64,000 nt of DNA, from NCBI GenBank assembly GCA_030267565.1, contig BRXU01000004.1, positions 977,501-1,041,500 of the forward strand, read 5' to 3'. Positions 12,601 through 57,200 of this stretch are shown in pieces; position 1 is the stretch's first letter, and the number at the start of each line of letters is the position of its first letter. The position numbers were made by a program, and so were the translations under genes. This DNA comes from Pleodorina starrii (Eukaryota > Chlorophyta > Chlorophyceae > Chlamydomonadales > Volvocaceae). The notes beneath the pieces are model-generated. The model had not been told where the DNA came from. It ran no database searches and saw only the letters and a list, made by a program, of their open reading frames with translations.

Positions 12601-14841
12601 CACCTGACAGCATCAGCGACCACCTCCGCTCCCTACAGCCGCTTCGGCACTGCCGAGTCGCTCGCCACCCCGCCACACACCGGCCCCGTGCTGCCCCCCG
12701 AGGCGTCCCTGCCCTGCTGGATCCCCGTCCCCCGCGCCGGCGCCGGCCGCTCCAGCTACTCCGCCGCCGCCGGTGTCGTACCGCTCCCCGGCACCGCACC
12801 CAGCACCCCACACGGCGGCCTGTCGGGCTCCGCCAGCGGCGGCGGCACCGCCGTCACCGCCGCCGCCCGCGCCGCTGCCATTCAGCGGTCCAGCACCCCG
12901 CAACTGCCCTTTCTTCCGCCGCTGGGCGCCTTTGACGGCCTGGGCGGCGGCGCCGCCGCCGCCGTACCTGGCACCGCCCTGACGGCCCTGCAGGTGGCTC
13001 GCCTTCGCGCAAGCCACCAGTCCCTGCCAGACGACGCCCTCGCGGGCGGCGGCGGCGGCGGCAGCGATACGGCAGGCATCGTGTCGCGCGCGCAGAGCGG
13101 GCGGCCATCCGAATCCGCATGTGCTGGGCAGTACGGCAACGCCAGCTCTTACCCGGGCATCGGCCGGGCATCGCGTTGGCGTGCACCGCGGACTCACAGC
13201 GTGGTGTTGCCGGCAGAGGAACCAGTCGTCTCGGTCGCGGGAGGAGGGGGAGGGGGAGGAGGAGGAGGCTCCGCCGCCACCGGGCCCTCCCTTGACCACC
13301 TGTCCCACCCGCCAGGTAGCCCCGACGCCTGCGCCGCTGGCGGCAGTGGCGCCGCCGGCGGCGGCGGAGGCGGTGGCGGCGGCCCGGCCATGTCGGGCCG
13401 GCCTGACCTTAAGGACAAGGACAGGGAGAAGGACAGGGACAAGGACAGGGAGAACCGGCCGGCTGTGATGGCGGAGTGCTACAAGATCACGCAGCAGCCG
13501 GCGGGCGGGCCGGGCGGGGGCGGCAACGAGGTGGCGCAGAGCATCACCATGATCAAGTACACCAACCTGAAGCAGGCGGGTCCGCGTGCGAATGTGGGTT
13601 CGTGTATGAATGCGTGTGTGAATGCGGGTGTGTGCGTGCGGGCCTTGTAGTGGCGGTGTTGGTGTTGGTGTTGGTATGAGTGAAGTGAGCAGCGCTTCCG
13701 TCAGGCCCCCACGTCCCCGCCCCCTGGCGCGAGTGGGTTGGTTGAGCCTGTGCAGACTCGCGGGGCACGACGAGCGACGCATCGGTGTCTTGGACTTGGG
13801 TTGTTGCGGGCGGCCACGGTCCCCACCCCACCCCACCCCCGCCTCCCGAATCCCGACCCGCATGCGCTCTTCCTCCCCCCTCTCCTTCCCCTCCCCCCGC
13901 TGCGTTTCCAGTCTTGGTAAAGTTACAGGTATTCGGTCGGGACGTATTGCCTTGGGTTCAGGGTCCGCTCGCTAACGCCGTCTCCCTCCGTCCCTTCGCT
14001 GCGGCATCTTCCGCATTCATCGCCACACTCCTCTCAGGAGCTGGCCCGAGGTGACGACGCGGAGGAGCCGGACGATGTGCTGGTGCCCACCAACATGCTG
14101 CTGGTGCCCACAGTGGCGGTGGAGGTGGCCATTTGGAGCCTGGGGGTGTTCAGGTGTGTGTGGGGGGGGGGCGTGAAGGAGGTGCATGCGGATCGGGCCC
14201 CGACGTGTCCGGCCCTGCCCTGCCCTCGCGCCGCGGGTGTTGCGCATGTCCTGCTCTGTTCTGTCCTGTTCTGCTGCCTCGCTCGCGCCTTCTCTCTCTC
14301 TCTCTCACGGGTTTTCGCATTTCGGCGGTCCGTTTCCCTGCCAGTCGCCTTTCCTGGGACTGCAACGCCGGCTTCTTCCTGGTATCGCTCCAACCCTCCT
14401 TCTTCCCCCTCCCCTGCACCGATCTCCTGACCCACCCCGCCTCCCAACCCCCTCTTCGCTGCGGGGCTCTTCTTTCTCCTCCTCCTCCTCCTCCACCCGT
14501 CTCCCTCCCCCGCCCTCCCCCCCTTTCAGGCTCAAGGGCGTCACCGAGCCCATCAAGATCCTGCAGGTGCTGCCCACCCAGCTGGAGGGCCGACTGGCAC
14601 TGCTCAACAAGGCCGGGCTCAACCGGGGGAAGGCCAGGTGCATCGAGCGGCGGGTGGCCTGCCTGGACGTCATCACACTGCAGCTGCCGGATGTGTCGAG
14701 GCTGTCGTGCGTAGCAACGGCGGCGGCGGCGGCGGCGGCAGCGGGCTCGGTGGACGCTGCCGGCACCGGCGGCGGCGGCGGCGGCGGTGGGTACTCGCCT
14801 GGCGGCGAGGAGAGCTTTCTCGATGAGGACGGCGGCGGTGC

Positions 14842-14874
<33 letters not shown>

Positions 14875-20992: not shown

Positions 20993-20997
20993 TGTAA
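20993..20997 (+). terminator. Candidate poly(A) signal TGTAA (cyclase gene)
   Basis: TGTAA is the usual polyadenylation motif of volvocine algae. This is the first copy found downstream of the stop at 18404. Confidence 0.35.
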
Positions 20998-27153: not shown

Positions 27154-27158
27154 TGTAA
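27154..27158 (+). terminator. Candidate poly(A) signal TGTAA (CAD gene)
   Basis: Plus-strand TGTAA 584 bases after the CAD stop codon, a plausible 3' UTR length for these algae. Confidence 0.5.
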
Positions 27159-27621: not shown

Positions 27622-27921
27622 CCTATACCTCGCTTGCCCCACGCACGCTGCATTGCGCGAGGCCCCAAACCCCTCGTAGCACGCTCATCATGTTGCTCCC
27701 CGAGTGCTGCTCCCCCCCGGAGTGGTGCTCCCCGGAGTGGCGTCCACTCATGCGCCAACCACCGCCGCCACCACCACCACCAGGTGCAGCCCCCAACTAC
27801 CACCACCGCCACAGCTACGGGCAGCTACCGCCCACCAGAGGCTGTCCAGTCAGGGGCTATCCAGTGTCCACTCAGCGCCGCCCAGCCCCCCGCTCAAGAG
27901 CCCCCCGGAATCCCTAGTCCC

Positions 27922-30900
27922 CTACCCGCCGGCCGCCTTGCCGCCGCTCCCCCGCCGCACCCGCCGCACAAAGCTCGCACCCCACGGCCGCTTCGGCTCG
28001 GCCCCCTGCTGCTGCTGCCGGCTCCCAGACGCTCCATCCTCCCCCTCGTCCGCATCCGTAAACTCCAGCTCATCGGGGTTGAAATCCGGCCCCAGTTCCA
28101 GATCCAGATCCTCCACCCCAGCGCCGGCGCCGTAATACCCAGTGTCGCCGGCGCCGGCGCCGCCGCGCGCCCCCCGCGCTCTGCCGCCACTGCCGGCACC
28201 TGCGGGTCTCCGCAACCGCTCCGCAAGCTTCTGAAGCTCCTGCTCCTCCGCCCGGGCGCCGTAAGGCCCCGCGCGGACGCCGTAGCCCCCGTCGCCGCCG
28301 CTGGCCGCCGCCGGCCTGATGCCCTTGCCGCCCTCCAGCATCCCCTCGTCGTCCATGAACTGAAACTCCTCGTCAAGCCCCTCGGGCAGTCGCATGGGGT
28401 TCATGCCCACCTGCAGAGAATGCCGGAAGGCGGCGGGGAAAGGGGGGAGGGAGGGGGGGAGGGAGGGGGTTATCCACGTATAGGTCGGAGCCCGTAAACG
28501 GGGGTGGGGGGCGGGGGGATGCTGGAGGGCGGCAAGGGCCTCAGGCCGGCCATGTCGGAGGGTGCGGGCCGCTTGGCCCCGGTGCGGGCCGCCGACGTCC
28601 GCGGGGCCCCCCTCCCTCCAAGTCCCCTCCTGCTTCCCTCTCCAGCGGCTCCCGCCCCGCCCCACCCTCACCCGCCTGTGTGCGGACTGTGGACATTTTT
28701 TCACAACATACCCCTCCCTTCCTCCCTCCCCCCCGCCGCCTGACCTGCCCCCTCCCCCCTCTCCCCCCCCACCTTCATGTAGTCGTCATCCGGCCCGAAC
28801 TCCCGCTCCTCATCCGGCACCGGCCAGTCCTCGTTGGCTCCCCCCAGTGTCACCGACTTGAGCGCCACCATCTCCGCACTGAAGCCCACCAGCATGTTGA
28901 TCAACACATCCAGAGCCAGCTCGTCAGCGGTACCCATGTCGATCCTGAGGGGGGGGGCCGGGGGGGGGGGTAAATAGAAGATACCGCAGCGGGAGCCGGG
29001 GGCGGGGGGTGTAGACGTGGTGAGAGCGCGGGGCGGGGGTGGCGGGGTGGAGGCGTGGGGGGGGGAGATCAGGGGGGGAAGGGTTTGGGGTGTTTGGGGG
29101 GCAGAGGTAGGGTGGGGTGCGGTGGAGCCGAAGGGATGGAGGGTTGGGGAGGAGATTTGAGGAGCCGGTATGTCTGGGGGGAAGGGAGGGATGTTGATGT
29201 CGCACGCGATCGTGCGGTGGTGGTGGTGGTGGTGGTGGTGGTGGCTGGCCCCCGCGGTTTGGGTGCTCTACACGCTGCTGCTGGGAGTCGAAGAGTCGGC
29301 GTTCTTGCCGGGGATCAGCGGCGGGGTGTGCGACGTGTAAATACTGTGTCATGTGATGCGTGTGGCCGCTGTGCCATGTGACGTGTGCAGTCGCTCGCTG
29401 AGTCGCTCGCCCATTGGTTCGTTGGTCTGTTAGTTCGTTGGCTCACCACACGCGGGCCCAGGCGCCCCGGTACTCGACCTCCCCGATGTCGTGAACGTAC
29501 GACGACATGCGGTTCTCTCCCGCCTCCAGCTCGTCATTGTCGTATTCAAAGAAGGACTGGTCGTCGTCTGCGTTTTGGTAAACCTGGGAGGGGGGCGGGG
29601 GCGGGCGGGAGGGCGGGAGGAATCACCGACGCAGCCAGCCAGCCAGCCAGCCAGCCAGCCGCCCACCCAATCGCCCATCCATCCATCCATCCATCCATCC
29701 ATCCATCCATCCCATCCATCCATCCACCCACCCCAGCAGCGACGCGGCCGCAGCTCCTCCGGTCTTGGAAACGCAACCAGGTACAAATACGTCTTGCAAG
29801 TACTGCCGAGGGTCCCGGTGGCCCGTCCGCCCTCCCGTCGCCTACCTCCCTCCGCTGCGGTATCTTCTTTCCTTCCTTTCAGCCCCAGCCAGACGCCCAA
29901 TCACCCGCCCAACCACCCGCCCAGTCATCCAGCCACCCGATCAGCCACCCACCTGCAGGTTCTGGCTGTTGTATCCTCCCATCTTGCCCACCGCGAACCA
30001 GCTCTTGAGCAGCCCCTCCAGCATATCGGTCTCAGAGGACATGGGGGCCTCAATGAACTCCAACCACAGCTGGGGGGAGGAGGAAGGTGGGGAGGTGGGG
30101 AGGGAGGGAGGAGGTGGGGAGGGGAGGAACTCATATAGGACACCGAAGGGGGGGCTTTGAAGGGTGAATTTGCAAGGAAGAAACAAGAAGCCCTGCGGAT
30201 GTTGTAGTCCGGCGGGGGTGGGGGGGCGGGTAAGCCGGGGGGAAAGTAGGACAGGGACTTGTGTGTGCGTGTGTGTATTGGGGGGTGGCCGGTAATAAAG
30301 AAGGGTGTTTGGAGTGTGTGTATGTGTGTGGTTGGGGGGAAGGGGGCCTGCGGGAAAAGAGAGCCGGGAGGGCTCGGGGACAAAGAAGAATGGCGGAGCG
30401 GGTCTGTGGGACTGTGGGCGGGCGGGAAAGGGCTCCAGGGAAGACGACGGGACCCGCTGAAGCCGCTGCGGCTGCGGTGGCCGAGTACGGCACATATCTG
30501 TGCAGGCCAGGTGGGCGAGGGACTCGGGAATGAGTTCGGCACCCCCCCCCCCACCCTTTTCCCTCCCCTAGCCTCCCTCTCCACCCCCCCCTTGGGTGCT
30601 GTCCCTTCCCTCCTCGACTGCCCCCCCACTAACAGAGCCGCTCACCCACAGACCCATGGGACTGATGGCCCTGAAGCGGATCACGGGCGGCACGTCCGAG
30701 CCCTGCTCCTCCCGCCGCATGTCCGTCTCCTTGAGCGCGTACTTCATCTGCGGGGGAAGCGCAGTGGTGCAGAGCAGGGAAGCGTAGATAGGGGGTCAGG
30801 GAATGATATGCTCCTTTATAAAAAAATGAGTCACTGGGGACGTTGTTGATCAAGCTGCTACCGCCGTTAAACCTCCGGAACTGTCAGGCGAGTGGGTAAG

Positions 30901-32001
30901 CTGGCTGGCTGGCTGGCCGGCTGGCTGGCGTTGTGGGGATATACGGCTAAGAAGGAAGAACCGCAGGGAGGTGGTGGGCTTAGGGGGGGGGCGCGAAGAT
31001 GGGTACGAGTGAATGGTGGCCCCAACCAAAGCCGGGCCCCAACCAAAGCCGAGTTGGGCGACCGCCAACCCCCGGCCGTCCCCCGCCCCACCCGCCCGCA
31101 CACCATCCACCGCGGCCCCACCGGCCCGCTGCACGTTGCCTCCCCAGCCCTCCAAGGGCCCATCAACGGCCCTCCAAAGGGCGCCAGCTGACCGGGCCGT
31201 CAGGCCCCACCCGCCTGTGCCACCCACCCCACCCCACCCCACCCCATCCCACCCCACCCCACCCCACCGCAGACCCAAGCCCGCCTACCTGAGCACCGTC
31301 CCCCGGCCCCCGCCCCTCGGTCCCCCGGTCCCGGGGGGGGGAGGTGGGTCGCACTCAAACGCCCGATCGATCCCGAGTCGCCCCGGCTGTCGGCTGATGT
31401 TCGTCGAGCCGGCTCCCCCGGGTGGGGTAACGGCCGGTCACGGCCGTACCTCGAAACCCCGAAAAGTACGGTGTCGTACAGTGCCGTACCTTTTCCCGGA
31501 TTCGGTCCGGATCTCCGTCCGTGCCCTCCAGCAGCCGGGACACATCGGGGTCGTTGTCCGCGTCCTCCTCGAGAATACTGCCGTACACGTCCAGCGGGCG
31601 GGCGGGTGGGAAGAGGCGGGTGTGTCAGGCCGGACGGCCGGAGACGGGTTTTAGGGTTGTGGGAGCCGGGAACTGCTGAGAAGCCGTGGAAGGGGGTTAT
31701 CCACGGCTTCGGGGGTGGGGTATCCACGTATAAGCCGGGGCCCGTGAACGTATCATTCTGACATGAGGGAGCGAACCCACCGAGGGGGAAAACGGGGAAG
31801 AGTCGGGGTGTGGAATGTGTGCAGTCCCTTCGGTACTCACCGAACCCATTCGGGCTTTCGCGTTCGCCGACCGGCTTGGCTGCTCCCCCCGTACGGTTCG
31901 GGCCCTAATGCTGCAGCTAGCGTGGTGCCGCGGCCACAGCGATGTTGACCGGCGACCGGCCCACGCCCGTCTTTTTGCGTGCATGAGGCTGGCCGAAACA
32001 T
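27922..32001 (-). CDS. DUF3531-family protein, probably plastid-targeted
   Basis: Function is unknown; the family is shared by plants, algae and cyanobacteria. Exons on the minus strand: 32001-31841, 31577-31490, 30747-30646, 30069-29953, 29583-29447, 28944-28773 and 28410-27922, total 421 residues, all phases consistent. The core reads [46 protein letters not shown] (near 118), [17 protein letters not shown] (140-156), [28 protein letters not shown] (190-202) and [16 protein letters not shown], which I recognise as DUF3531. The first about 45 residues are Arg/Ser/Ala-rich without acids clustering, compatible with a transit peptide. The C-terminal about 120 residues are low complexity (Gly/Ala, poly-Gln). 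The second exon's 3' splice site (CGGCAG at 31582-31578) has a poor pyrimidine tract. It was chosen because it alone restores phase. An upstream in-frame ATG exists at 32109. Confidence 0.8.
28466..28500 (-). repeat. Intronic repeat family D, copy 1
   Basis: In gene sense CGTTTACGGGCTCCGACC then TATACGTGGATAACCCCC, about 55 bases before DUF3531 exon 7. Confidence 0.6.
28966..28996 (-). repeat. Intronic repeat family B, 3' copy (DUF3531)
   Basis: In gene sense reads CCCGCTGCGGTATCTTCTAT then TTACCCCC, 22 bases before exon 6. Confidence 0.65.
29628..29731 (+). repeat. (CAGC)n and (ATCC)n microsatellites
   Basis: A run of CAGC units followed by about fifteen ATCC units in the DUF3531 intron 29584-29952, close to the 5' end of exon 5 territory. 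Confidence 0.9.
29841..29878 (+). repeat. Intronic repeat family B, inverted 5' copy (DUF3531)
   Basis: Plus strand CCTCCGCTGCGGTATCTTCT; in gene sense it is AAGATACCGCAGCGG, about 75-110 bases after the 5' splice site of intron 4. Confidence 0.65.
30147..30184 (-). repeat. Intronic repeat family C, copy 1
   Basis: In gene sense TTGCAAATTCACCCTTCAAA then GCCCCCCC, about 78 bases before DUF3531 exon 4. Confidence 0.5.
30799..30863 (-). repeat. Intronic repeat family A, copy 1
   Basis: On the minus strand (gene sense) reads AGCTTGATCAACAACGTC, then AGTGACTCATT and TTATAAAGGAGCATATCA. It lies in DUF3531 intron 2, about 50 bases before exon 3. Confidence 0.75.
31209..31268 (+). repeat. (CCCAC)n repeat
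   Basis: Twelve or so CCCAC units with one ATCCCAC variant, in DUF3531 intron 2. Confidence 0.9.
31691..31750 (-). repeat. Intronic repeat family D, copy 2 (doubled)
   Basis: In gene sense CGTTCACGGGCCCCGGCT then TATACGTGGATACCCC, followed by a second partial CCGTGGATAACCCCC; in DUF3531 intron 1. Confidence 0.6.
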
Positions 32002-36300: not shown

Positions 36301-39300
36301 GTGTTTTGGCCGTGTTGAGGGTGAAATGCGTGCTGCAATGGTATTGGTACTGACCGCAACGAGCGGGGGAGGTAGGGTGGGTGGGTAGGGGGGGAGGGGT
36401 TGGGAGGGTAGGGTGGGAGTGTGGGAGGTTGCCGGCAGCGGAAGGGGGGGAGGCCGGAGGGAGCAGCCGGGAAGGGGGGATGGGGTGGGGGTGGGGGGAT
36501 GGTGGGGTGGTGGGGTGGTGGCGTAAGCCGGTGCACGGTTCTGCCGGGGTGTGTGTGCTGTGTTTTGCTCTGTGTTGTGGGATGTTTTGTAGCATCGATG
36601 AATGTGAGTGTTCAGTGGGCCAGCAGGGAGGGAGGTGGGGTAAAGCTTCCCACCTGTTTGTTTGTTTGAACACATGTTTGCTTGTTTGTTTGGACCCACC
36701 ATCCACCATTCCATTCCACTCTATAACGTAACGTAGCACGCCCCAGTGGCCACGGACACCCCGCCCGCTCCCGACCTCCTTTCCCCCCTTCCCGGCGCCC
36801 TCTTACATCCAATGGGGGCCCGCGACCAGGTCCAACGCCGCTTTGTCACTCCTGCCCCTCCCCCTCCCCAACTTCCGCGCCTCCCTCCCCTCCCCTTCCC
36901 GCCCCTCCCCCGCCCCCTTCAGCGGCCGGAGCAGCTTGATCAACAACGTCCGCAGTGACTCATTGTTTTATAATAGAGCATATCACTCCCTGCCCCTCCC
37001 CCATCACTCCCCCCATCACCGCGATACCTTTTATTCCTCCCCCCTCCCCCCCCAACCCCAGGGGCATCCTGCTCCACGGCCTCCCCGGCACTGGCAAGAC
37101 CCTGGTGGTCCGCTGCCTAGCCGGTGAGGTGGCGCGGCGCTCGCCGGTGCCTGTGGCTCTGTTTGCCCGGGGCGGGGCGGATGTGCTGGGCAAGTACCAC
37201 GGAGATGCGGAGCGCACGTTGAGGCTGCTGTTTGAAGAGGTGCGGGCTCGGGGGGGTGGGGGGGCCGGGTGGGGGGGTGGGTGGGGGGGCAACAACGACG
37301 ATAAGGGGGGGGAGGCGGAAGGAGATACGAACGGGTGGGGGCGAGAACTAAGCACCCCGCCCCGGGCCCCGCCCTCCCCCCCTCTGCCCTCCACCTCCCC
37401 CCCAGGCCCGTCGTGTCGCCCCCTCCATCATCTTCCTGGATGAGCTTGACGCCCTGGCCCCCCGTCGCTCCGTATCCGCGGGGGGTTGCGACCAGATATA
37501 CGCCTCTGTGGTGTCAACACTGCTGGCGCTGATGGACGGGGTGGCGGACAGGGGGCAGGTGGGTGTGTTTTGGGGGGGGAGAGGAGGGGAGGGGAGGAGG
37601 GGGGGAAGGGGGGAGGAGGGATACAGAAGGAGCGGAGGTGGGGCAGTTGGGTAGATCGGGGGCAGGTTGGGCACGGGAGGCGGGGTGGTGGGGAGGGGGT
37701 TAAGGGAGGGGATTGGGCAGCGAGGGGGCAGGGGGGGCTGCGACCTGGGCTGGATATGCGTGTGTGTGGGGGGGGGCCCGGGGTGGGAAAGAGGGAGGAG
37801 GGGGGTGGGGGGGAAGGAGGGGAGGCGGGTGTAGCTTTCAGCGTCTCCCTCCCTCCCCTCTGTGCGCCTCCGAATGTCTTCCTCCTCTCCCGTTGGGTCG
37901 GGTCGGGTCGGTGCTGCGGCGCCACGGCCCGCCGCGATCCTCAGCCCCCTTTCACAACCCATCCCATCACATTCCATTCCATTCCATTCTGGCGCCCGCT
38001 CAGTTGGTCTCCGGTTCGGTTCTGTCGGGGAAGGGCGGTGGGTGGGTGCGGCCGGGGGCGGTTCTGCAGCCCTCCTTCTCCCCTCGGTCCGCCTCCTCCC
38101 CCCACCCGCACCCACCCACCAAGGCTACATCCCCTCTCCCGCCTGCCCTCCCTCGCCCTGCCCTAACCACCACACCCCTCATCCCAATCCGCCACTCCTC
38201 TCCTCACCTTGTTCCCCCCTCCCCCCCTCCATTTAACCCCCCTCCATTTAACCCCCACTCCTCCCCCCCACTCCTCTCCCCCCACCCCAACCCCCGCCCC
38301 CATTCAACCCTCCATATGTCCCCCTCCCCCAAAGGTGGTCGTCATCGGCGCCACCAACCGGCCCGACAATCTGGACCCCGCCCTGCGCCGCCCCGGCCGC
38401 TTCGACCGGGAGGTGGCTGTGGGGCTGCCCACCCGCGGCGAGAGGGCGGAGGTACTGAGGGTGCACACGGCGGGGTGGAGGCCGCAGCCGCAGCAGGAGC
38501 TCATACGGAGGCTGGCGGAGGCGACGGAGGGCTTTGCGGGTAGGAGCACCCGGGCGTGGGGGGGCGGGGGAAGGGGAAGGGGAAGGGGGGTGTTTGGGAG
38601 CCGGAAGGGGGGGCGGGGTGGGGCGGAAGGGCTGTGAGGCGGTGCTGGGGCGATGAAGTCGGGGGGCGGACCCCGGACTGGCGGGATGTCCTTGCTTGCC
38701 TGACTACTTGGGCCTTGCTTCCCACACAGACACACACAGACACACAGACACACGCACACCCTCCCGCAATTCCGCATCGCACTCAGACAAAGACAACCTT
38801 CCTCCCACAAGCCTTCTTCACCCGAGCCCTCCCACACGCCTACCCCTCCCTCCCTCCACCCCCCCCCCCCACCCCACCGCAAAGGTGCCGACCTCGCCGC
38901 GCTGTGTTCCTCAGCCGTCTTGGCGGCCCTGCGCCGGACCTCCACCGCCGCAGCCGCTGCCGCTGCTGCTGCTGCTGCAACCGCGTCGACCCACACCCAC
39001 ACCCACACCCGTACCCCGCCTGGCCCCGGGGACCTCGGCCCGGGTCCGGGGCCAGGTCCGGGGTTGGTGGAGCGGTTGGTGTGGAGCCGGGAGAGGCAGC
39101 GCAACCGAATGGAGAGGGCGGAGGAGCGACGGCGGCGGCGGCAGCAGCACGAACAACAGCAGCAACAACAACAACAGCAACAACAGCAGCAACAGCAACA
39201 ACAGCAACAACAGCTGCAGGGCGGCGGCGAGGTAGCCCGGGGTCCGGTGCCGCTGCGGGACACCGAAGGACCGAAGGCCAGCGAGGCAGTGGCTGCTGCT

Positions 39301-42300: not shown

Positions 42301-45238
42301 GAGGCGGAGGCGGCGGTGCTGCCGGCTGTACGGCGCGCGGTGGAGGGCGCCGCGCTGCGGGCGCTGCACGCCGCCGCCGCCGCCGCTGCAGGAAGCTCCG
42401 CCGCTCTTGGTGGTCTCTCCGGGACCGACAACGCGCGGGTGCAGGCAGGGCGAGATGAGGGCGGCGACGGCGGCATCGGGTCCGGTGCGGATGACGATGA
42501 TGGTGGCGTGCGCCGGATTGCGACAGGGGCCGCGGCGTGTGGCGATGGCGTTGCCGGAACCGGCGTTGTCGGCGGCGGCGGCGGCGGCCCAGCGCCGGCG
42601 GCGGCGGCGGCGGCGGCGTGTGCGCCTGCGGTGGCGGGCGGCTTTGCGGCTCATCCCGGGGAGCTGGTCCAGGGGGGGATGAACAGCGCTGAGCTGGAGA
42701 GGGGGCGGCGGCTGCTGCTGCAGGTAAGACGTAAGAGGGAGCGTTATGTGAGTGTGTGTGTGTGTTCTATTCGTTCCCGTAGACCACATACATAAGAGCA
42801 GAGGGGGTACCGTTGGGACGCTGGAGCTAAAGTCCAAACCGCCAGGACCTGCAGCACCGCCCCACGCAGCCCCGGCCCGTTCCCGCCTCGCTCCTCACTC
42901 CCTGACACCCCCCTCCCCTCCCCTCCCCCCGGCTGCCCTCCTCCTAACACCCCCCACCACCCACCCACACGGTTCCGCTCTTGCATTACACTCTTCAACC
43001 CCCCAGTTCGCAGACGCCGTCTCCGTCCCTCCGCTGCGGTATCATCGTTTTACCCCCTCCGCCCCCTCAGTCCCAGGTGGCCGTCCGCAGCATCGCCTCC
43101 ACCATGATGCGCCGCCACAGCGGCTGCCAGTTGGCCAGGGCCAGTCTGCGAAGAGCGCCGAGGGGAAGCGCCGGCGGACCGACCTACACAGCAGCCGCCG
43201 CAGCAGTGGCCGCAGCCGCAGCAGCAGCTGCGGGCGGGCCGCACCCTCCCTGGTCCGCCCACCCCCACCCGGGCCACCCCCCGCTGGTCGCCGACTCTTC
43301 CAACGAAGAGGCGACGGGCGGCAGGCGGGGCGGTGAGGTGGTCAGTCTGGCGGATGTGGCCCAGCGGGCACTCGATGGTGGGTGCAAGCCAGCGTGACCT
43401 CCCGTGTCCCGTCTCGTCTTGTCCCGTCTCGTCTCTTGGGGGGACCGGCCTTCCGGGGGCAGCGGTCCATCCGTTGGGGCTGTCTGGAGGGACGGCCTGT
43501 TGGGGGTGTTGGCATGTGTATGTGTGTGTGTGTGTGGTGGGGGGCCCCTGCCGGCCTCATCGCAATCGTTATCGGGGAGGCATGAGTGCCGGTACGCTCT
43601 CTGGTGGCCTTGCTGCCACGTGGCATTTGAGGTCCATGAAAATGGATGCTTTCCCCCTGCTCGCACACGCTCATGCGCACGCGTCTCCCCTGCCCCTGCC
43701 CTTGCTCTTGCCCCCGCCCCTACGTCCCCTCTCTCCCTGCCCCTCTCTCCCTGCCCCTCCCTCCCCTTTCCACACCCCTGCCTTCCCTCCCCCCTTCCAC
43801 GACTCCGTGTTTTCCACCGCACTCATCCTCGCCCTCTCCCCTCCTTGCAACGCACTCGCCACACTCCTCCATCACCCCTTCCCCCGCTCCTCCACCCCTC
43901 CTTCCGCCCCGCCCCACCCCCCCTTCCGCCTCCCCCTCCGCCCCCTCAGGCCGCATCCACACATTGGACCAACTCCGGGTGGAGGTACAGGCCGCCGCAG
44001 CACGCATCAGGACTCTACGCGCAGCCGACCCCCACCCCCACCCCCACCCTCACCAGCCACATCCCGGACCCCGGCGCCCTGCCCCTTCCCTCGGGCCCCA
44101 CGCCACCGACGGCCTCGTCCCCCTCAGCGGCAGCGGTGGCTACAGCCGCGCCTCCGCCGCCGCCTCCATGTGGGAGGACATTGTGGTGGCGGCCTGCGAG
44201 GCGGCCTCTCGGGCCCTACATCTGGACGAGCCGTCCGGAGAGAACCGGCGGCTGCTGGAGGCCGCCCTGGAGCACCTGCAGCGGGCGGACGTCCAGGATG
44301 CGGCAGCAGCACCAGCAGGAACGGCAGCGGCGGAGGCAAGAGGGGAAGGAGCGGTGGGTGCGGCTGCGCCGCAGCCGTCGAGCAGCCAGAGGGCGGCAGC
44401 CGCCGCCACCGGCGCCGCGGCGCTGCGCTGCCGCGTGGCCCGCTCCTTGACTCCAATCCGGGAGGAGGAGGGCGGCAGCCCGCGCCGGGAAGAGGCAGCC
44501 GCAGGCGTCAAGCGGCGGCGGGGGCAGCAGCAGCAGCGGCAGCCGGGCGAGTTGCCGGCGACCTTTCCCGCCGGTGACGGTGAGGGGCGCGGCGGCGGCG
44601 GCGGCGGCGGTGGAGCCGGTCTTGGAGCGGGCTGGCAGGTCCGTGCGGCGGCTTTCTTGGAGCGCCAGGCGGCGACGCTGGCGGCGGGTTTGGAGATGCA
44701 GCTGGTGTCGCGTGGGAGGCTGCGGCGGGTGCTGCAGATGGGGCCTGGCGGCTGCGGCGGTGGCGGGGGTGGCGGTGGCGGCAGTGGAGCGCACTTGCGA
44801 CTTGACGCCGGGCCGGACCGACCGCGGCGGCAGCAGCAAGACGACGAAATGGAGGAGGAGGAGGAGGAGCAGGCAGATGGCGTTGGCGGTGCGGATGTCG
44901 GCGCGGAGTTTGATGAGCGGGTGCGGCGGGTGGTCTCCCGCCTGCTGGCCGCGTGTGAGCGCGTGTGCGTGTTCGGGTGCGGCAGCCTCATCGGCAGCGG
45001 CAGCGACGTCGGTGTTGGAAGCCGGGAGGCAGGTGGGAGCGGGGCGTTGGATGGCGGGCGCGGTGCCTACTTGAGCTGGGTGGGCCTTACGGCGGAGGAG
45101 GCCGTCCGGTGCGACGGCGTCAGCGGCAGCGGCCGATGGGGCGGCGAGGCCGCGGCGGCGGCGGGCGACGCCGCGGGGCGGCTGGCGGCGGCGGCGGAGC
45201 AGCTCGCGGCCGCGCTGGAGGCTTCCATCTCTTCCTAG
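33321..45238 (+). CDS. ePHD zinc-finger AAA ATPase with second degenerate AAA module (ATAD2/Yta7-like, plant type)
   Basis: Probably a nuclear chromatin factor: the extended PHD would contact histone or nucleic acid and the AAA module would supply ATP-driven remodelling. Exons: 33321-33479, 33684-33754, 34274-34771, 35105-35387, 36130-36224, 37062-37239, 37406-37558, 38335-38539, 38885-42723, 43071-43377 and 43950-45238, giving 2358 residues with all phases agreeing. ePHD at about 10-122 ([46 protein letters not shown]). AAA1 has VGGL before it, Walker A GLPGTGKT (375-382), Walker B IIFLDELD (436-443) and the second region of homology [11 protein letters not shown]...RRPGRFD (484-503), so it looks active. 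A second AAA at about 1340-1600 has lost Walker A (CGRGDMGQE) but keeps [10 protein letters not shown]. Between and after lie Gln, Gly, Ala and Glu runs. No bromodomain is visible. The ATG context GTTAAAATGA is good. Confidence 0.85.
33348..34418 (+). other. Extended PHD (ePHD) zinc finger
   Basis: Spread over exons 1-3. A pre-PHD C2HC unit (CxxC in CAFC, then HRNC) is followed by an atypical PHD with CxxC (CGYC), a CxxxxC (CRLERC), HxxC (HLPC) and a closing C..H pair (CPRH). This spacing is the ePHD signature, seen in MLL-type and plant chromatin proteins. Confidence 0.75.
34841..34870 (-). repeat. Intronic repeat family B, inverted 5' copy (ePHD-AAA)
   Basis: GGGGGTAAAAAGAGAAACCG then TGGAGGG, a divergent inverted copy about 70 bases into intron 3. 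Confidence 0.4.
35677..35753 (+). repeat. Intronic repeat family A, copy 2
   Basis: In the ePHD-AAA intron 35388-36129: AACAACGTCCGCAGTGAGCC, TCATTGTTATACAAAGGAGC and a TCATTCCCTG end. The AACAACGTCC start is duplicated. It is the one copy not close to a 3' splice site. Confidence 0.7.
36931..36992 (+). repeat. Intronic repeat family A, copy 3
   Basis: In the ePHD-AAA intron 36225-37061: AGCTTGATCAACAACGTCCG, CAGTGACTCATTGTTTTATA and GAGCATATCACTCCCTG, about 70 bases before the exon. Confidence 0.75.
37013..37046 (+). repeat. Intronic repeat family B, 3' copy (ePHD-AAA)
   Basis: CACCGCGATACCTTTTATTC followed by CTCCCCC, 15 bases before the exon at 37062 and directly after a family A copy; divergent. 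Confidence 0.4.
39149..39214 (+). repeat. CAA/CAG repeat encoding poly-Gln
   Basis: In-frame CAA/CAG codons in the large ePHD-AAA exon, coding more than 20 Gln. Smaller poly-Gln runs occur in the cyclase at 1509-1535, 1987-2038 and 17280-17296. Confidence 0.9.
41290..42065 (+). other. Second, degenerate AAA-like module
   Basis: Inside the 3.8-kb exon, [20 protein letters not shown] aligns with a P-loop region but lacks the GK[ST]. It is followed after a low-complexity insert by [13 protein letters not shown] (Walker-B-like) and [19 protein letters not shown] (sensor-like). This order matches the inactive second AAA of ATAD2-type proteins. The assignment is by pattern and less certain than AAA1. 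Confidence 0.55.
42971..43006 (+). repeat. Intronic repeat family C, copy 2
   Basis: CTTGCATTACACTCTTCAAC then CCCCC, 65 bases before the ePHD-AAA exon at 43071. Confidence 0.5.
43021..43056 (+). repeat. Intronic repeat family B, 3' copy (ePHD-AAA)
   Basis: CCCTCCGCTGCGGTATCATC then GTTTTACCCCC, 14 bases before the exon at 43071. It sits just downstream of a family C copy. Confidence 0.65.
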
Positions 45239-47047: not shown

Positions 47048-47365
47048 ATGCGGCCGCTTTCTGCGCCAGCTCTTGGTCGCCGGCTAGGCTCGAGCGCACC
47101 GCATCCAGTTGTGATTGCGCCGCGCCTGCGTCAGGGAGTCCTTCGTGCAACACCTCGCCGATCGGTAAACTGTCCAGCGGTGCTGGCTTCCGTTGGCAAC
47201 GTGCAGCTCAGCCAATCCGGAAGTCAGCAAGGGCCGCAGCATGCCTCACTGCTGCATGGGCTGGGAACCGTTGGGGAAGTGAGCGCCGCGCACTTGCCAT
47301 GGCTGCTGCGGCTGGCTCACGTACGCGCCAAGACGTCCGGCGGTGATTCTGGAGAGGCCCTCCAG
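47048..47365 (+). other. Possible orphan exon or gene fragment
   Basis: Open from an ATG at 47048 and ending at CTCCAG before GTGAGC, a consensus splice donor. The C-terminal part (LLHGLGTVGEVSAAHLPWLL) has the helix-like, Leu/Gly pattern seen in helical-repeat organelle proteins, but I cannot assign a family. No convincing partner exon was found. The next candidate coding piece (around 47580-47700) has no clean acceptor. It could be a remnant, an upstream exon of the VWA gene, or chance; the minus strand is also open over part of it. Confidence 0.22.
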
Positions 47366-48225: not shown

Positions 48226-51200
48226 ATGGCCGCTGCCGTCCTGGCTCCTCCCGGTTGTCTCTCCTGCCCAGACCTCCCACACGCTCTTCCAGCCCTGCGA
48301 CACTCTCCCCTCCCCGCACCCTCCGCTCAACCCAAACCCTCCTCCCCATCACTCCACCCCCTTCACCCCTTCACCCCCTCCCCGCCAATCTTCGCCTCCC
48401 CACCCTTTCATCCTTATAAATTCACTCTTCAATCCCCCCCACCCGCCCGCCCCCCACCCCCACCTCCCCGCTCCTCCCCGCCCCCCAAGGCCTCCTCCCG
48501 TGGCCTGGCCGCCTGGTCCGCTGCGCTGTCCCGCGGTCTGCTTCCCGACGACTGCACTCTGCATCAGCTGGTGGCAGAGGGGGACGACTTCGCTGCCGCA
48601 TGCGCCCACGCCCCCCTGGAGCTGATGGCCTGGCCCGAGGAGCCGCTGAGGACCATGATCATTCGGGCGCTGGCCAAGCTGGGGGTGGGCAGGTGGGTCG
48701 GGGGAAGATAGAAGTACGATGCCGCGGCGAAAGGAAGGGAGGGGGTCGGCAGGTGGGTCGGGGGAAGAAGAAGGATGCCGCGGCGAAAGGAAGGGAGGGG
48801 GGGTCGGCAGGTGGCTCGGGGGAAGAAGAACGATGCCGCGGCGAAAGGAAGGGAGGGGTCGGCAGGTGGGTCGGGGGAAGAAGAACGATGCCGCGAAGAA
48901 AGGGACGGAGAGGGGGGAGGGGACGATAAGCCTTCCATCTTACGGTGCCTTCCCTCCCCCCAATATATAAAGGAGCTTATCACTTCCTGACCACCACCCC
49001 CGTACCTCAGGCTGTGTAAGAAGTACCCGGCGGTTCGTGATGCGCTGCTCAAGAGCGTTCTGGAGGTGGTGGTGCGCTACCACAAGATGCTGGCGGGAAT
49101 TGAGGTGGGTGGGAGGGGAATGGAGGGGTGTGTGTATGTGTTTGTGTGTGTGTTTGGGGGCGGGGGTTAGCCACGGGAGGGTAGGCCGGGGCCCGTGAAC
49201 GGTGAATAATGGCGTAGGTAATGAAATTTACCTACGGGGAGGTGAAGGAGGCGGTGGATGGGTAGAAGCGCAGAAGAAGCCGAAGCGCGACGACGAGGAG
49301 GGAGAGAGAGGGAGAGAGCGGAGGGGGAGGGGGTTCCCGAAGAGGGGGAGGCCTTGAGTTGGGTGAGGGTGGGAGCCGAGGCGAGGAATGAGGGCGAGGG
49401 AGAGAGGGGGCTGCGGCCGGGGAGGCGGGGGGCATCGCCACTGGGGTGAGTACGGGTTGGTGGTGCGTTGTTCGGCGGTGCGGCGGTGCGGCTAGCGTTG
49501 ATGCGGTGGGCGGTTGAACGTTCGAAAGGCGACTGTGCGGGCCATGAGAACTCGGGGGAATGCCGGGGGGAGGGGGGCATGCGGGCGAGAGTCTTGTTCG
49601 GGCATGTGATGTGATGTGTTTTGAGGTGTGCAGCTAATCGCCGGGCCGCGATCTGTGTGTCTATAGCCTCTCCCGCATACCTGGTCGGTGCTTTCCTTCC
49701 CCCCCCCTCTCTCCCATCATCCCCACCTCCATTCGGAGCCTTCTCTCTACCCGACCTCCATCCCTACGGACAGAGAGTCGGGACGACATGAGGGGGGGAG
49801 GGAGGGGAGGGGCGGGCGGTCGAACGCACGCGGCATCTTGACATCATAAGGCTTGACATCATGAGCGACCCGCTGCTTGGTTGTCTGTCATGACGCAGGA
49901 GGAGAGGGAGGAGCGGGAGCGGGACATTCACGGCAACGTGTTCAAAACGGCGGTGGAGCTCCAGGTGGGGTCGGCGGGGTGGGGTGGGGTGGGGGGGCTG
50001 CGGGTTGTGGATGATATAGGGCGGCAGAGCGACGGGCGGTCTGGAGGGGGGTTAGGGTTTCATTCATCGGGCAATGAGGGCGGCGAAACGAGATACGGGA
50101 GGCCGGGAGGCCGGTCAGCGTCAGGAGACGCCCTGGGCCTTACCCTCCCACCTTCTCCGCTGCGGATTTATCTTTATATCCCACCTTAAGAGCTGCGATA
50201 CGGGAACGTCTCCGGTCTGGATTCTTCGGCGGCCCCCGCCAACATATGTACGGTACTACGGTGGATTATGGGGCCGCGGTACTGTGTGCTTCGCCTCCCA
50301 GTGCCCCACACCGGTGCTGCTCCCGTTCGCTCCTCCCTCAACATGAGTGGTTCCCTCAACACGAGTCCTTGAGTGGCTCGGTGCCGAGCGCCGGTGTCTC
50401 CTGGGACACGTCCTCGGCACCACAACCCTTTCCGCCCTCCCCCCGCCCTCTTATCCCTTGTCCGCCCCCACCCCACCCCACCCCACCTCACCCCACCCCT
50501 CCCCGCTCCCTCAGGCCGAGGAGGCCGCCCGGCGAGCCGCCACGAGGGGCAGTCCGGGGGTGAGCCAGGGTCCCCTGGAGGGGAGGGGTGCGACCGACAT
50601 CCACAGGCCTCGAACTTGGAACCTCCCGCACTCCCGTGTGTGTCCGCAACCGCGCAACCGCGCAACCGCAACCGCGCAACCGCGACCGCAACCGCAACTG
50701 CGCCGGACCGGGGGGGAAGGGGAGGGGGCGATGCGCCTCCCCTGTCTGTTTTGGCGCACACGTGACTGCAACGCACATGCCAAAACACGGCACGGCACGT
50801 CACCCCTCGCGGGGTCTACATCCTCACGCTCTCTCCCCCCGCCCCCACCAGTGACGAGAGAGCCCCTCCTTCTTCCCCTCTTTCCCCTCTTTCCCTCTTC
50901 ACCTCTTCACTTCCGTTTCACCGCTGCGGTTCCATACTCCTTTCCCCGGCAAGGGAACCCATTCCCCCCTTCCATTCCCCCCCTCCCGCTCCCTTCTACC
51001 CCTCCCTCCCCACCCTCCCCCTCCCCACCTCACCCCCCCACCCCCCACCCTCCTCATGCAGTCTGGCGGCAAGGCCGTCGCCGCGCCCGCCGTGCTGACC
51101 CCCTCTGAGGCCGCCGCCGCCCGCCTCCGCTCCGCCGTTCTGGCCGCCACCTCGTCTGGTGCCGCCCCCGATAAGGCCACCGCCTTCGCCCTGGTCAAGG

Positions 51201-54200
51201 AGCTGTACGGGCAGTGGCAGGCGCCTGTGGAGACGCTGGGGCGGGCGGGGCGGGCGTTTGAGGGCCTGGAGGCACTGCTGGGGGCGGAGGGGTTTGACCT
51301 GAAGGTGCGAGTGTGTGTGTGTTGTGTGTTCGGGGAGGGGACGATTTCGGTGGGATGGGTGGGATGGGGGTGGGGACGATTTGGGTGGGATGGGTTGGTG
51401 TGGCGCGGGATGGGGTAGGATATTGGAGCCGGGTGACTCTTATGTTGAGAGGGCGGCCCCGGGGTGGAGCTACCTGCAGGGCAAGGAGGGTGTAGGGCGT
51501 GGAGGGGGGGAAGGGGTCGCGGGCGGGGGGTGGCGAGGGCTTGGGGCTGGAGTTTGGATGCGCCTGGGGGGAGAGAGACGGGCCTCTTGAGGTGCGCCTG
51601 GGGGAGGGGGAGAGGGGAATTTGGCGCGAGCGAGGCAGGGGATGGGTGGGGTTGGGGTGGGGCTGGGGTTTGTGGGGGCTGTTGTGCAGGGGTGTGGCAC
51701 CTGTTCCCCCCTTCCCCTTCCATCCCCGCCCGTCCCTTCCAATCCTGTTTATTATTGGCCTTTCCTGGAGTCCATGGCGGCGGCTTCCTGGAGAGCCTGC
51801 TGCTCCAACCCGTACCAAGGGACTGCACTCCGTAACACTCTCAAATCCCCTCCAAATCCCCTCCCAACCCCCCCGCCCCGGGGGGGGACTGCCCTCGGGA
51901 GCACGCCCCCGGTGCCCTGAAGCCCGTCATTCCCCGGCCTGCCCCGAAGCCAGTCCTTGCCTTGCCTTGCCCTGCCCTGCCGGCCGCCTGCCCCCGGCTC
52001 CTGGAAACCTCCTCCCCGCCTCAGCTGCTCCTCCCTCACTTCCTCCGGACCTCCCCTCTCAGATCCCCCGTCATCCAAACCCCCCCTCCCCATCCCGCCC
52101 CCCTCCCCCCCTCCGCAGGGCTCCATTTGGAAGCGGCAGGGCTGGGCGCAGCTGGACGAGCTGAGGCGCAAACTGGAGGTACGAACGCGCGTACGACATC
52201 CGAGGTCCCGTCCCACCCGCTTCCTCTGCCTGCTGTGTTTGTTTGGTTGCACAAAGACCAAGACGGCGATGTGCGAACGCTTTGCACTGCTGAGGACTCA
52301 ACTCACTTCCCGGCGCTCGCTTTCGCTGCTGCGGAAGCGAGCTCCAGCTCCCGTGTGTGTGTGTGTGTGGGGGGGGGGGCGGGTAAAAAGAAAATACCGC
52401 TGCGGAGAAGGAGGAGGGGGGGAACCAAAGAGGAGGTTACCGCCAGGGGGCCGTGTCGCTCGCGCCTGATCCACCACAAGGCACACAAGGCATGAGCGTC
52501 CAGTCGCAAGTCCCGAGGATCACACCTCGCCGCGCTCACGACTCACGACGCGCCGCTATATCGCGCCCTTGAACAGATGTGTTGGAGAATGCATACACCA
52601 GGTGTCATCCCCCGTCCCGCGCCGCATGTGCGCATACGTGTCGTACTGCAAACCCGCCCCTGTCGTACTTGATCAATTATACCGCAATCGTACCCAGTGT
52701 GCCGCAATCGTACCCGCCGCCTCCCATGTGGCGGCTGCACAGGACCTTCGGGAGCTCCGGGACCTGGTCCGCAGCCTGGGCAGGGGAGGGGGCTGGGGAC
52801 CGCTGCGGAGGGCGCCAGTGCAGGTGGGGGAGGAGGGGGGAGGGGGGGACGGGAGGGGGGGACGGGAGGGAGGGGAAGGGGATGAGCGCTTGCGAGCTGG
52901 AAGAGGGGCTTTGGAAGGGAAGGGTGGGGTGGGGTGATGGTGGGAAAAGAGATAGCAGAGAGTCTGCTTGCTGACAGGCCGAGCTGGCAGGGAGGACGGC
53001 GGTGTCCGCTGATGCGGAATGGCTCGCGAGCGAGCGAGGGAGAGGGCCGATATGTGGGGTGGTGGGCTACAGCTTTACAATGCACGCAGCCGCAGCCGCA
53101 GCTCCCCCAAATTCACCTCCAATGGCCGCGGTTCCCCGAACCCCGAATGGATGCCGTCGCCTTGCCGTCAAGTGAACCCCTTCCTGCCTCCCCCTCTCCA
53201 AACCCCCCTCCCCGAACCGAACCGACTGCGGCCAACACCATTTCCCCCTTCCCCTCCCAATCCCGCAACTAATCAGACAGCCGATCCATTCGCAACCGTT
53301 TATGTCATCCGCATCGGCCTCCCAACTCCTCCGCAATGCCCTCTCGCCCCCCTCCCTCCGTCACTCTCTATTCCGCCTCCCTGACCCCCCCCTTCCCCGT
53401 CCCCCTCCCCCTCCCCCCACCCCCGGCTCCGGCCTATACGTGGATAATCCCCCGGCTCGCAGTACCTGGACCTGAACGCCCGGCCGGGTCTGCTTCGCAC
53501 TGTGCTCGAGGCCCAGGAGACCCGGGGGCTGACCCGCTCGGAGGACATCAGCAGACTGCTGCCGGCGGAGGCGGCGCTGCTGGCCAGGGGGAGGCAGGTG
53601 AGGGGGTGCGGGGCGGGGCGGGGGTGCTGGGCGGGGCGATGTGGCTTGCAGGGCCCTTTTTAGAGGATGCGGTGGGGTGGGTGGGCGGGTGGGTGCGGGT
53701 GCTGGGTTGAGAACGCCATTGATCGGAAGCTCGAGAGCAACGCGCACACCCCCGCACCTCTGGCCCCCGGCCCCCTGCCCTGTCTCTTGTTTCATTTCCT
53801 CTCCCTCCCCTCCCACCTTCCCCCTCCCCCTCCCTGGACTGGACTGACAGGTTCGTCAGGCCAAGCTGCTGTTTTACGCCCGGCTGGCGGAAAAGGCGCT
53901 GCAGACGTACGAGCGGGACGGGTGGGGCGAGTACCCCACGCAGGTGGGTGGGGGGGTGGGGGGGTGGCTGGATGGGGCTGGGGCTGGGGATGGGGTTGGT
54001 TTGGCGGCGAAGCAGCGGCGCGCCCGGTCAGGGCAGAGGTTCCAATGAGTCGTTCCGGGGTGTATGGGGGGGAAGGTGCGCTACCGCTACCGCTGTCTCT
54101 CATCTCACCGAACACACCCCCAATCAATCACACCGGTTTGCGAACTTGGCCGGTGTTTTCGCGGGCCACGGGTGGCTGGCCCATCGTCCTTTGCCTGTTT

Positions 54201-57200
54201 CGACCCGTGACCTGGATGCCGCCAACCCCACAGTCCTCAGTCCCTTCGCCGCGTTTCGTATTCTTACCTCACACCCACACGCACCCACACGCACCCACAC
54301 GCCCTCGCTTCTTTGTCCGCCCCCGCAGGTCGAGCCCGAGCGGCGGGAGATCCGGCCCACTGCCGACCGGGGGCCCATCCTGTTGTGTGTGGACACCTCG
54401 GGGTCCATGAGGGGGCCGAGGGAGACGGTGGCCAAGGTGTGTCGGATGGCTGGGGGGTGGGGGGTGCGCGATTGGGTCCTTGAGAGCAGGGGAGGGGCCG
54501 GGGGGGAGGGGCTAGCCTCTCGGCCTAGGTAGTCCACGGCTCCGGTTCCCTCTTTCGGTTCTACGGCTACTACCACCACCACTATTCGACTACCATTGCC
54601 GTTTGTGCTCAGCCCCACGGCACTCGGCTTGTACTTTTTCCACGCCTACTTTGCACTGGGAGCACCTGTTCCTGTTCTCCGCCTACCGCCCCCCTGGTTG
54701 GTTCCTACTCGAGCTCGGGTGCCGCGTGTCTCGCCTGTCTCTCCTACACGCGAAGAGGCACCGCGGGACTGTGTGGGTGGGTGGGGGCGGAGCCCGAACC
54801 CCCCGGCTGAACTTGCAAGCTCGTAATCCCTGCCCTCCGCCAAACCCTTCCCCTCCCCTATCCCCTACCTCCTTCCTCCCCTCCCCAGGCCCTCGCCCTG
54901 GAGTGCATGCGCGCCGCCCGGCAGCAGGAGCGCGGCTGCTACGTGTTTGCGTTCTCCGGCCCCCAGGAGGTCCGGGAGCTGGAGCTCAATATGGATGCGG
55001 CCTCACTGGACAACCTGCTGGGCTTCCTGGAGAAGGTGGAACTGGGGGAGGAGGGGGAGGAGGGGGAGCTGGGGGGGGGCGGGGGAGCTGGGGGGGGCGG
55101 GGGAGCTGGGGGGGTGGTTAAGGAAGAGGTTTACCGCAGCGAGGGGACGGAGACGGCGTCAGCGAGGAGCGGACCCTGAACCCTGAACGTACATGTAACC
55201 TGCTGTGCCCCTCCGGTACACACACCTCCTCCCCCTGACATCACCCTTGCTCCTGCCCCTCCTGCTCGCCCCCCCCCCTCCCCCCCTTCCCTGCCCTGCC
55301 CTCCTCTAGATGTTCAACGGCGGCTCCGACTTCAACGAGCCCGTCAAGCGCTGTCTGGACCGACTGACGGACGCCAAGTGGGCCAACAGCGACATACTGC
55401 TGGTGTCGGGTGGGTGTGGGGGGGGTAAGAAGAAAGATACCGCAGCGGGGGCCGGGGGAAGAGGGGACGGGGGGCCGGGTGGAGGGGAGGGGAGGGGTAA
55501 GGGAGGACGGGAGGGAGGATGATGGGAAAGGAGAAGAGTGTCTTACATCCCCGTGTAGGCCGGCGGCCGCGAAGGGCTCTCGCTTGGCGGGTGGGGCTGG
55601 GTGGGGCGAGGGAGCAACGCTGCGTGCTGCACGGCTGCTCGACCCTGGAGCAGCGGCGCGCGTCCAGCGTTCGATCATGTCGATCGATCTGCGGCCCGCC
55701 CGCGGCCGGGACCGCATTCACGCTGCGACCAACAAGCCTAGCGTATGGGACACACCAGGCCACGCGGCGCCGTGTTTCCACCTTGGAGCCAGGGCCCCAC
55801 CGGCATTTACGGACGTGTGGTGCGCTGAAGCCACAGCTTGTACCCGTCACCCGTGGACTTATTGTCCGGCCGCGCTTACAATGGTGCCGGGGGCGCAGAG
55901 ACGCACACGCTTGAGGGCCCCGCTGTGGGCCCGAGGAGACGGAGCCAGGGGGTGGACGACCATTTCCCGCCCAGTAGCCCGTCCTCTCGAGCCCATACAG
56001 CTGCCCTGCTGCCCACTACCGGTGCCAGACCCACCCGAATCGTCCGCCCCTCCAACCTGTCCCCTCCCCCCCTCTCCCGCAGCTCGATCATCAACGTCCG
56101 CAGTGACTCATTATTTTATAAAGGAGCATATCACTCCCTGAACCCCCTCTCCCCTCCCCTTTCTGCTGGGTTCTGGCTCGCCTACGTCCCTCCGCTGCGG
56201 TCTCTTGTCCATTTTCCCTGCCCTGCTGCCATCCCCTCCCCCCTGCCCCCCCTGCCCCCCCTTCAGACGGTGAGCTGCGTCAGCCCGCCCCCGCCATCAT
56301 GCGCAAGCTGGCGGGTGCCAAGGAGGGTCTGGGTCTGCGGGTGCACGGGCTGGTGGTGGGCTCCCCCGAGAAGAAGCGGGCGGACCCGGCGGTGCTGAGG
56401 GCGCTGTGCACCAACTACCTGCCCAACGGAAAGGTCGAGGTGGGTGTGGGGCTGCGGGGCTACAGAAAGGGGGTGTGGAAGGAGGGTGCGACGGGGTAAC
56501 ATACGGGGGGTGAGGGGAGGCGTCTGGGGCAGGCAGAGCAGCACGCCAGCCCCCCGGACCGCCAGACGCAGCACCCGCCATGGTGTGGAACGAGGAGTGC
56601 GGGCAGGAGCTCCCCAGAACGGCACCCCCTGATGCGTGGCGTTGCGTCCCCTGCCCTGCCCTGCCCTGCGTCGTGCCGCCCTGTCCCCCGCCCCCACCCC
56701 ACCGCACCACGAATTGTCCTCGGCTCTCGCACGCTCCCGCCCCCGCCCCCGTGATTCAGTTATCCCGTCCCGCCTCGCCCCCGTTTATCCCCGCCCCACA
56801 CACTGCCACACCCCCGGCCAGGTGTTGGTGAGCAGCTTTGAGAACTGGGCCTCAGTGCAGGTGGGTGGGTGGGTGGGTGGGTTAGCGGGTGGGTGGGTGG
56901 GGGAGTCCTCCTCCTCCTCCTCCTCCTCCTCGTGGTGGTGGTGGTGCTGGTGGCCGCGCGGCGTCCATCACCGTGTATGTGTGTATGTGTGGGCCGTAGC
57001 TCGTCGGGTGCACCGCCGGGCAGAGGGGCCTTTCACACATGCGACATGAGCACAACCTTTCGCTTCAACCTACTTGGCAGCGCTCCAAGTAACCTCACCT
57101 TCACCCTCCCCCCCCCGTACCTCCCTGCCCACGGGCCCACGTCCGGCCGTGAACCGCGAACCCCACCCGCACCCGTGAACCGTCCCCTCGCTCAACCTCC

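Follow-up and report, generated by a model that had tools for sequence, protein, structure and literature searches.

Short repeats that recur beside the splice sites of unrelated genes, seemingly inverted at the two ends of their introns, raise the question of whether such repeats make introns or are merely directed to them. One such family, here termed B, had been pointed out in an earlier note on a stretch of 64,000 nucleotides of Pleodorina starrii DNA (the window), which attributed it to introner-like elements or MITEs that make or fill introns.

A scan of the window allowing up to three mismatches located the B core, CCGCTGCGGTATCTTC, at 13996, 29852, 43031 and 56192 on the plus strand and at 28977, 52390 and 55433 on the minus strand, positions that lie 8–14 bases above those given in the earlier note. 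A profile of family B, built from 56 copies all outside the window, recovered seven of the ten sites listed there (E 2e-13 to 3e-4) and found nine copies in total, two of them previously unlisted (55114-55168, minus strand, E 5e-7; 50148-50182, plus strand, E 0.004), with a best score of E 1.6 in the reversed window that served as control. The other three sites did not hold: 14451 scored at noise level (E 2.5), and 34841 and 37013 had no profile match at E 50 or better. The sequence GGGGGTAAA is present at 34846, although the profile gives no match there. In the genome as searched (136,057,477 bases in 95 contigs) the family had 5,087 matches with up to two mismatches (2538+2549) against 102 (54+48) for the pattern read backwards, and the motif is therefore not due to chance. 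At gathering score, Rfam identified no RNA family within the window. The short copies, or stubs, of B and of two further families termed G and C are distributed in the window as follows, with the E-value of the respective profile.

13959..14012, plus strand: B stub in predicted intron 13594-14037, sense, close to its 3' splice site (E 6.8e-9)
28966..28992, minus strand: B stub in predicted intron 28945-29446 of the DUF3531 gene on the minus strand, sense, with the 3' splice site about 20 nt away (E 6.6e-5)
29832..29871, plus strand: B stub between two predicted pieces of the DUF3531 gene on the minus strand, to which it is antisense (E 3.1e-8)
43003..43057, plus strand: B stub, sense, AAA gene, predicted intron 42724-43076 (E 2.2e-13)
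50148..50182, plus strand: weak B stub, sense, VWA-like gene, predicted intron 49965-50514 (E 0.0043)
52382..52414, minus strand: B stub, antisense, VWA-like gene, predicted intron 52191-52697 (E 8.9e-5)
55114..55168, minus strand: B stub, antisense, absent from the earlier note, predicted intron 55036-55309 (E 5.1e-7)
55422..55448, minus strand: B stub, antisense, close to the 5' splice site 55410, which was read from the sequence (E 3.2e-4, profile positions 35-61 only)
56179..56206, plus strand: B stub, sense, on the side of the 3' splice site 56266, read from the sequence (E 3.4e-4)
30794..30856, minus strand: G stub, sense to a minus-strand gene, predicted intron 30748-31489 (E 1.4e-19)
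35694..35754, plus strand: G stub, sense, predicted intron 35289-36129 (E 6.1e-12)
36933..36994, plus strand: G stub, sense, just upstream of the unsupported B site 37013, predicted intron 36225-37061 (E 9.1e-20)
48962..48991, plus strand: G stub, sense, predicted intron 48693-49010 (E 7.7e-7)
56081..56143, plus strand: G stub, sense, flanked by the B stubs at 55422 and 56179 (E 5.8e-22)
28469..28504, minus strand: C stub, sense, predicted intron 28411-28772 (E 1.9e-8)
31721..31750, minus strand: C stub, sense, predicted intron 31568-31840 (E 3.9e-6)
53420..53447, plus strand: C stub, sense, a short way before the predicted 3' splice site 53462 (E 1.1e-8)

Among the products of the window, Pfam matched pieces of three genes, namely DUF3531, AAA (E 1.7e-33) and a VWA-like gene (VWA_CoxE, 5.6e-5, and VWA_2, 1.1e-4, both below the cut-offs). 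The gene pieces flanking 29852 cover positions 3-54 and 42-141 of the DUF3531 model (E 1e-28 and 1.5e-16) and are one gene wrongly split in two. Since the plus-strand copy at 29852 sits between these two minus-strand parts, it is antisense within an intron missed by the gene finder, and it is scored as outside genes in the orientation counts given below. The orientation of the copies relative to genes was, in the scan and gene models, as originally described, and the VWA intron 55410-56266, read by eye, does contain both orientations, with the antisense copy close to the 5' end and the sense copy close to the 3' end. The gene finder split this intron in three; of the 68 introns predicted in the window, 14 hold stubs.

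When 61 B matches from 357 kb were aligned on the core (two of them counted twice, as locus L001 repeats part of the window), they shared a 3' end consisting of GGTATCTTC, a T-rich stretch and then C-rich sequence, while the left edge varied from copy to copy. A longer motif with up to four mismatches gave 63 copies in the fetched loci, against none for the reversed motif, and their length ranged from 24 to 650 nt with a median of 58. Family G was found by searching with a window intron and ends in CACTCCCTGAA before a C-tract, its shortest copies measuring 30 nt and its longest over 1.5 kb, and family C ends in GTGGATAA, likewise before a C-tract. With up to two mismatches the genome had 2,059 matches to G and 3,126 to C, the reversed controls giving 0 for each. 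G and C behave like B. In all, 114 of 140 copies were stubs of at most 130 nt (L001, the duplicate of the window, and L051 were left out, and one C copy without a breakpoint was dropped from 141). A candidate fourth family, D, had one copy at two mismatches and two at three to five, and was dropped.

The flanks of the copies carry marks of insertion. The two flanks of the same copy were more alike than flanks taken from different copies (mean score 8.07 versus 6.82, sd 0.18; permutation, n = 140), a score of 12 or more was reached by 15 of the 140 copies where permutation predicted 2.7, and an unweighted score of 10 or more was found in 15% versus 3.4%. Target-site duplications of 12–14 nt are seen in, for example, loci L002, L019, L013 and L006; these are C-rich and begin with the C-run, so that the run is more plausibly part of the target than a tail carried by the element. 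The duplication is an excess over the whole set and is not demonstrable for most single copies.

Long copies lead to the parents of B and G. Upstream of a long G copy in L036 there is a 534-residue frame that is still open where the locus ends, in which RLYTNIPH, GIPMGISPAPFIANLF and RYLDDL were picked out by eye as what we take to be the motifs of a Penelope-like reverse transcriptase (RT). Family and PDB sequence libraries searched with this frame returned no match. A protein search with the G-element RT gave 18 matches, several of them volvocine and two named reverse transcriptase domain-containing, with homologues in Tetrabaena, Chlamydomonas, Gonium and Volvox; over 73% of its length the G-element protein shares 99% identity with PLESTM_000457600 from Pleodorina starrii itself. 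The predicted model of one homologue (pLDDT 72.4) had telomerase as its best match in Foldseek and VIA-align, the latter being a re-alignment of Foldseek's own matches, with low TM-scores and with no match in a PDB profile search. A relation of the RT to telomerase is a hallmark of Penelope-like elements, and it is found here at the level of the predicted fold. The stretch that runs 3.4 kb upstream of the B segment in L051 encodes an RT related to that of G. Genome-wide, an RT match lay at near-constant distance ahead of 14 of 39 B segments (from 42, omitting the query's own place and two partial matches) and 6 of 41 G segments (40 of 42, omitting two weak matches, plus one place from the motif scan), and nearby for 0 of 40 segments of C; 72 of 90 RT candidates had been scored, and 57 of the 98 RT matches entered the comparison, the rest being further pieces of the same loci. 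These sequence relations and the predicted fold indicate that B and G are the ends of related retroelements with a telomerase-like RT, in keeping with Penelope-like elements. For C no parent came to light: its copy in L038 is about 600 nt long, and upstream of it tblastn matches were at chance level (best E 0.007); a retroelement origin of this family is what we infer. A frame of 447 amino acids in L049 had no Pfam match.

Alternatively, the stubs could be SINE-like or processed fragments that owe their mobility to an unrelated LINE and not to a Penelope-like element. The genome has many LINE-type RVT_1 genes, many stubs are just 24–60 nt long and no C segment has an RT match nearby, all of which would suit such fragments, but the near-constant spacing of B and G segments from an RT of their own speaks against it, and we hold this explanation to be unlikely.

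The placement of the copies was assessed with a gene finder of our own, an HMM seeded with a Chlamydomonas codon table and retrained on the DNA sequence of the loci alone, which returned 403 complete introns in 353.5 kb after predicted genes scoring under 15 were dropped. Stubs were present in 105 of the 403, an inflated rate since the fetched loci had been chosen for holding B or G. Of B (n = 63), 37 copies were sense intronic, 16 antisense intronic and 10 outside genes; the corresponding numbers were 25, 7 and 3 for C (n = 35) and 40, 1 and 2 for G (n = 43), and no copy was exonic. The copies are thus mostly intronic, sense copies prevailing towards 3' splice sites and antisense copies towards 5' splice sites, in agreement with the earlier note, which would have withdrawn its reading in the absence of a bias of place or orientation. 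Yet the C-tracts, taken as possible targets, show the same bias, apart from a strong sense excess of G: of 3,374 tracts, 48% lay within introns in sense and 38% in antisense, with 7.5% in exons and 6% outside genes. Distances to splice sites, measured to the 3' site for sense and to the 5' site for antisense copies, did not separate stubs from C-tracts (Kolmogorov–Smirnov, sense p 0.71, 0.30 and 0.78; antisense p 0.18 and 0.82), and G copies under 300 nt alone gave p 0.021 against the C-tract null. In stub-free introns of at least 100 nt (298 before this length cut) guanine makes up 52% of the bases at the 5' splice site and drops to 17% at the 3' splice site, while cytosine climbs from 18% to 53%. 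The choice of C-tracts as targets together with this asymmetry accounts for both the placement of the stubs and the look of inverted ends. Selection could explain why no copy is exonic, and so could a gene finder that annotates inserts as intron; when the elements were masked and the genes called anew, the sense to antisense ratio was 40:1 for G, 35:15 for B, with 2 copies in exons, and 26:7 for C. Two or more stubs were present in 17 of the 105 stub-bearing introns, about as many as in a hand-made Poisson estimate. A role for the stubs in supplying the branch site was dropped, as enrichment of 5- and 6-mers near the 3' splice sites of 243 stub-free introns revealed no clear branch motif.

Introner-like repeats would insert into exons, create the introns in which they are found and supply one or both splice sites, and they have been reported from 175 of 3,325 genomes (PMC9860276). 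With 126 of 141 copies inside predicted introns and none in a predicted exon, and with a predicted 5' splice site inside the element in 19 and a 3' splice site in 9 of the 105 stub-bearing introns, this explanation has its attractions. However, 23 of these 28 splice sites are in elements longer than 300 nt, where most recur at identical positions within G, and may be artefacts of a gene finder that reads the element as coding. Stub-bearing introns have a median of 313 nt outside the stub, fewer than 100 nt being left in just 11 of 105, so the creation of introns is not supported; in our gene models the element boundaries did not coincide with intron boundaries, and the 10 of 63 B copies outside predicted genes (at least one being a gene-model gap) are likewise against it. 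Beyond intronic location the introner reading finds no support and is very improbable. A DNA transposon, MITE or otherwise, whose terminal inverted repeats sit at the two intron ends, to which the antisense copies near 5' and sense copies near 3' splice sites and the window intron holding both had pointed, is barely credible and was rejected, given a fixed 3' end with a 5' boundary that differs from copy to copy, parents of B and G that encode RT, both orientations in only 4 of 105 stub-bearing introns (the window intron 55410-56266 would make five) and splice-site distances that do not differ from those of C-tracts. The derivation from mobile elements, by contrast, stands as originally proposed.

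The orientation of G requires a separate explanation. Of 41 intronic G copies, 40 were sense, against the 56% predicted from C-tracts (p 2e-9), an excess that persisted under six other C-tract definitions and with elements masked and is not explained by C-tract targeting; copies of at most 110 nt were sense in 16 cases and antisense in 0. B and C leaned more weakly to sense against the same null (p 0.05 and 0.01). Selection against antisense copies or insertion tied to transcription may account for the bias.

The stubs of B and G are most probably the 3' ends of Penelope-like, telomerase-like retroelements, and those of C are alike. Reverse transcription would start on the 3' end of a G-rich strand, which would serve as primer, and the element's end would therefore land before the C-tract; an early stop of synthesis would leave a short stub and the C-rich target would be duplicated at insertion. 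With introns G-rich at the 5' and C-rich at the 3' side, insertions would come to lie in sense near 3' and antisense near 5' splice sites and so resemble inverted ends. We infer an RNA-primed mechanism in which pre-existing G-rich ends are used without an endonuclease of the element. The GIY-YIG domain (PF01541) had 15 matches in the genome, each at least 220 kb from the listed RT matches or on contigs without one, a check that covered those listed matches and may have missed a divergent domain or one in the 5' parts of the elements. This makes priming from existing G-rich 3' ends plausible. Hammerhead ribozymes are a feature of Penelope-like elements; in seven loci searched with Rfam at E 0.5, the eight matches were to sub-threshold miRNA models only, with no hammerhead among them. 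Attachment of G to telomeres was rejected: among its 2,059 matches the G end was followed by CCCTAAA at one exact place and one with a mismatch, against 1 for the reversed control, and G is thus not telomere-bound in the assembly. Endonuclease-deficient Penelope-like elements are described as priming from exposed 3' ends at telomeres or breaks (PMC3846280), and by analogy such priming could act at intronic G-rich ends. A bolder possibility, which we put forward tentatively and consider somewhat doubtful, is that a telomerase-like RT without endonuclease acts within chromosomes in the way telomerase does at their ends: it primes at intronic G-rich 3' ends, leaves stubs often of just 25–60 nt and duplicates the C-tract so that the target is regenerated. 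If so, insertions would over time feed the G-to-C gradient of introns, and the sense bias of G would reflect transcription-coupled insertion or a 3' end compatible with splicing in that direction only. The three published P. starrii assemblies (male NIES-1363, female NIES-4481 and bisexual NIES-4479; PMC10256686) make priming at G-rich ends and orientation relative to transcription directly testable.

Penelope-like elements, 5' truncation and intronic insertions are already known. Stubs directed to C-tracts in this way did not turn up in the open-access literature searched, the coverage of which does not extend to the main paper on Penelope-like elements and Chlamys; at about 10,000 places (5,087, 2,059 and 3,126 motif matches) a telomerase-like retroelement group seems to have inserted. 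LINE-1-type insertions have a fixed 3' end, 5' truncation, target duplications and an A-rich target. The P. starrii stubs share the first three features and differ in the C-tract target, in being much shorter and in the predicted telomerase-like RT. Coprina, like Athena, is an endonuclease-deficient Penelope-like group. The elements described here resemble both in the predicted telomerase-like RT, near which no GIY-YIG match was found, and in 5' truncation, and are unlike them in that the stubs lie inside introns at C-tracts, with target duplications, and that G is not bound to telomeres. The Chlamys group possesses a permuted N-terminal GIY-YIG endonuclease. It is named in PMC12477816 and provides a parallel for a Penelope-like RT in green algae, but no GIY-YIG was found near the B and G RT matches listed. 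Introners, as described by Gozashti et al. 2022 (PMC9860276), are similar in being high-copy repeats in the introns of an aquatic alga, and dissimilar in that insertion into an exon makes the intron, whereas the P. starrii stubs sit inside larger introns. Intron-rich repeats with seemingly inverted ends are thus not necessarily introners, as a preference for C-tracts in strand-asymmetric introns mimics them.

Three long copies, one each of families B, G and C, which are 5′-truncated repeats with a fixed 3′ end, harbour signals resembling those of splicing. At loci fetched from the genome because they hold B or G, an AG|GTRAG motif, similar to a 5′ splice site, was located 218 nt (long B copy, L040), 399 nt (long G copy, L036) and 297 nt (long C copy, L038) before the end of the searched stretch, and it was absent from a second B copy, in L049. 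The acceptor-like sequence TTTTGCAG also lies within the long C copy of L038. The 3′ regions of these long B, G and C copies may contain introns. By eye, a short ATG-started frame leading to a GTAAAG donor-like site was seen near the 3′ end of G copies, at L008:1350-1450 and in other long ones. At this frame our HMM gene models repeatedly predicted an exon that was joined by splicing to a host exon. The same models wrongly split the single DUF3531 gene (window 27748-31849) in two, with a stub, a very short truncated copy, in the gap between the predicted pieces:

Window 29832-29871, antisense: family B stub.

Further copies and repeated segments were located elsewhere in the genome (G000):

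L005:745-880: a tandem array of five stubs of family C, with a C-run between successive stubs.
C43:780404-789959, near the contig end: two B segments that face opposite ways with about 8 kb between them, each 99% identical to the B query.
C7:2081468-2083448 and C1:4178999-4180979, different contigs: two copies of a 1,981-base stretch, 100% identical.

The tandem C stubs are arranged as if each insertion had served as the target for the next. The twofold 1,981-base stretch represents either a recent duplication or an assembly copy. The G ends in L008, L018 and L036 continue into microsatellites of the type (CCCCT)n, (CCCCCA)n or (CCCTA)n, which may be either insertion targets or products of slippage.

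Scoring 150 of the 1,045 candidates in the whole genome gave 150 RVT_1 matches, and many of these matches lay in open frames exceeding 1,300 codons. The genome is rich in apparently intact LINE-type elements.
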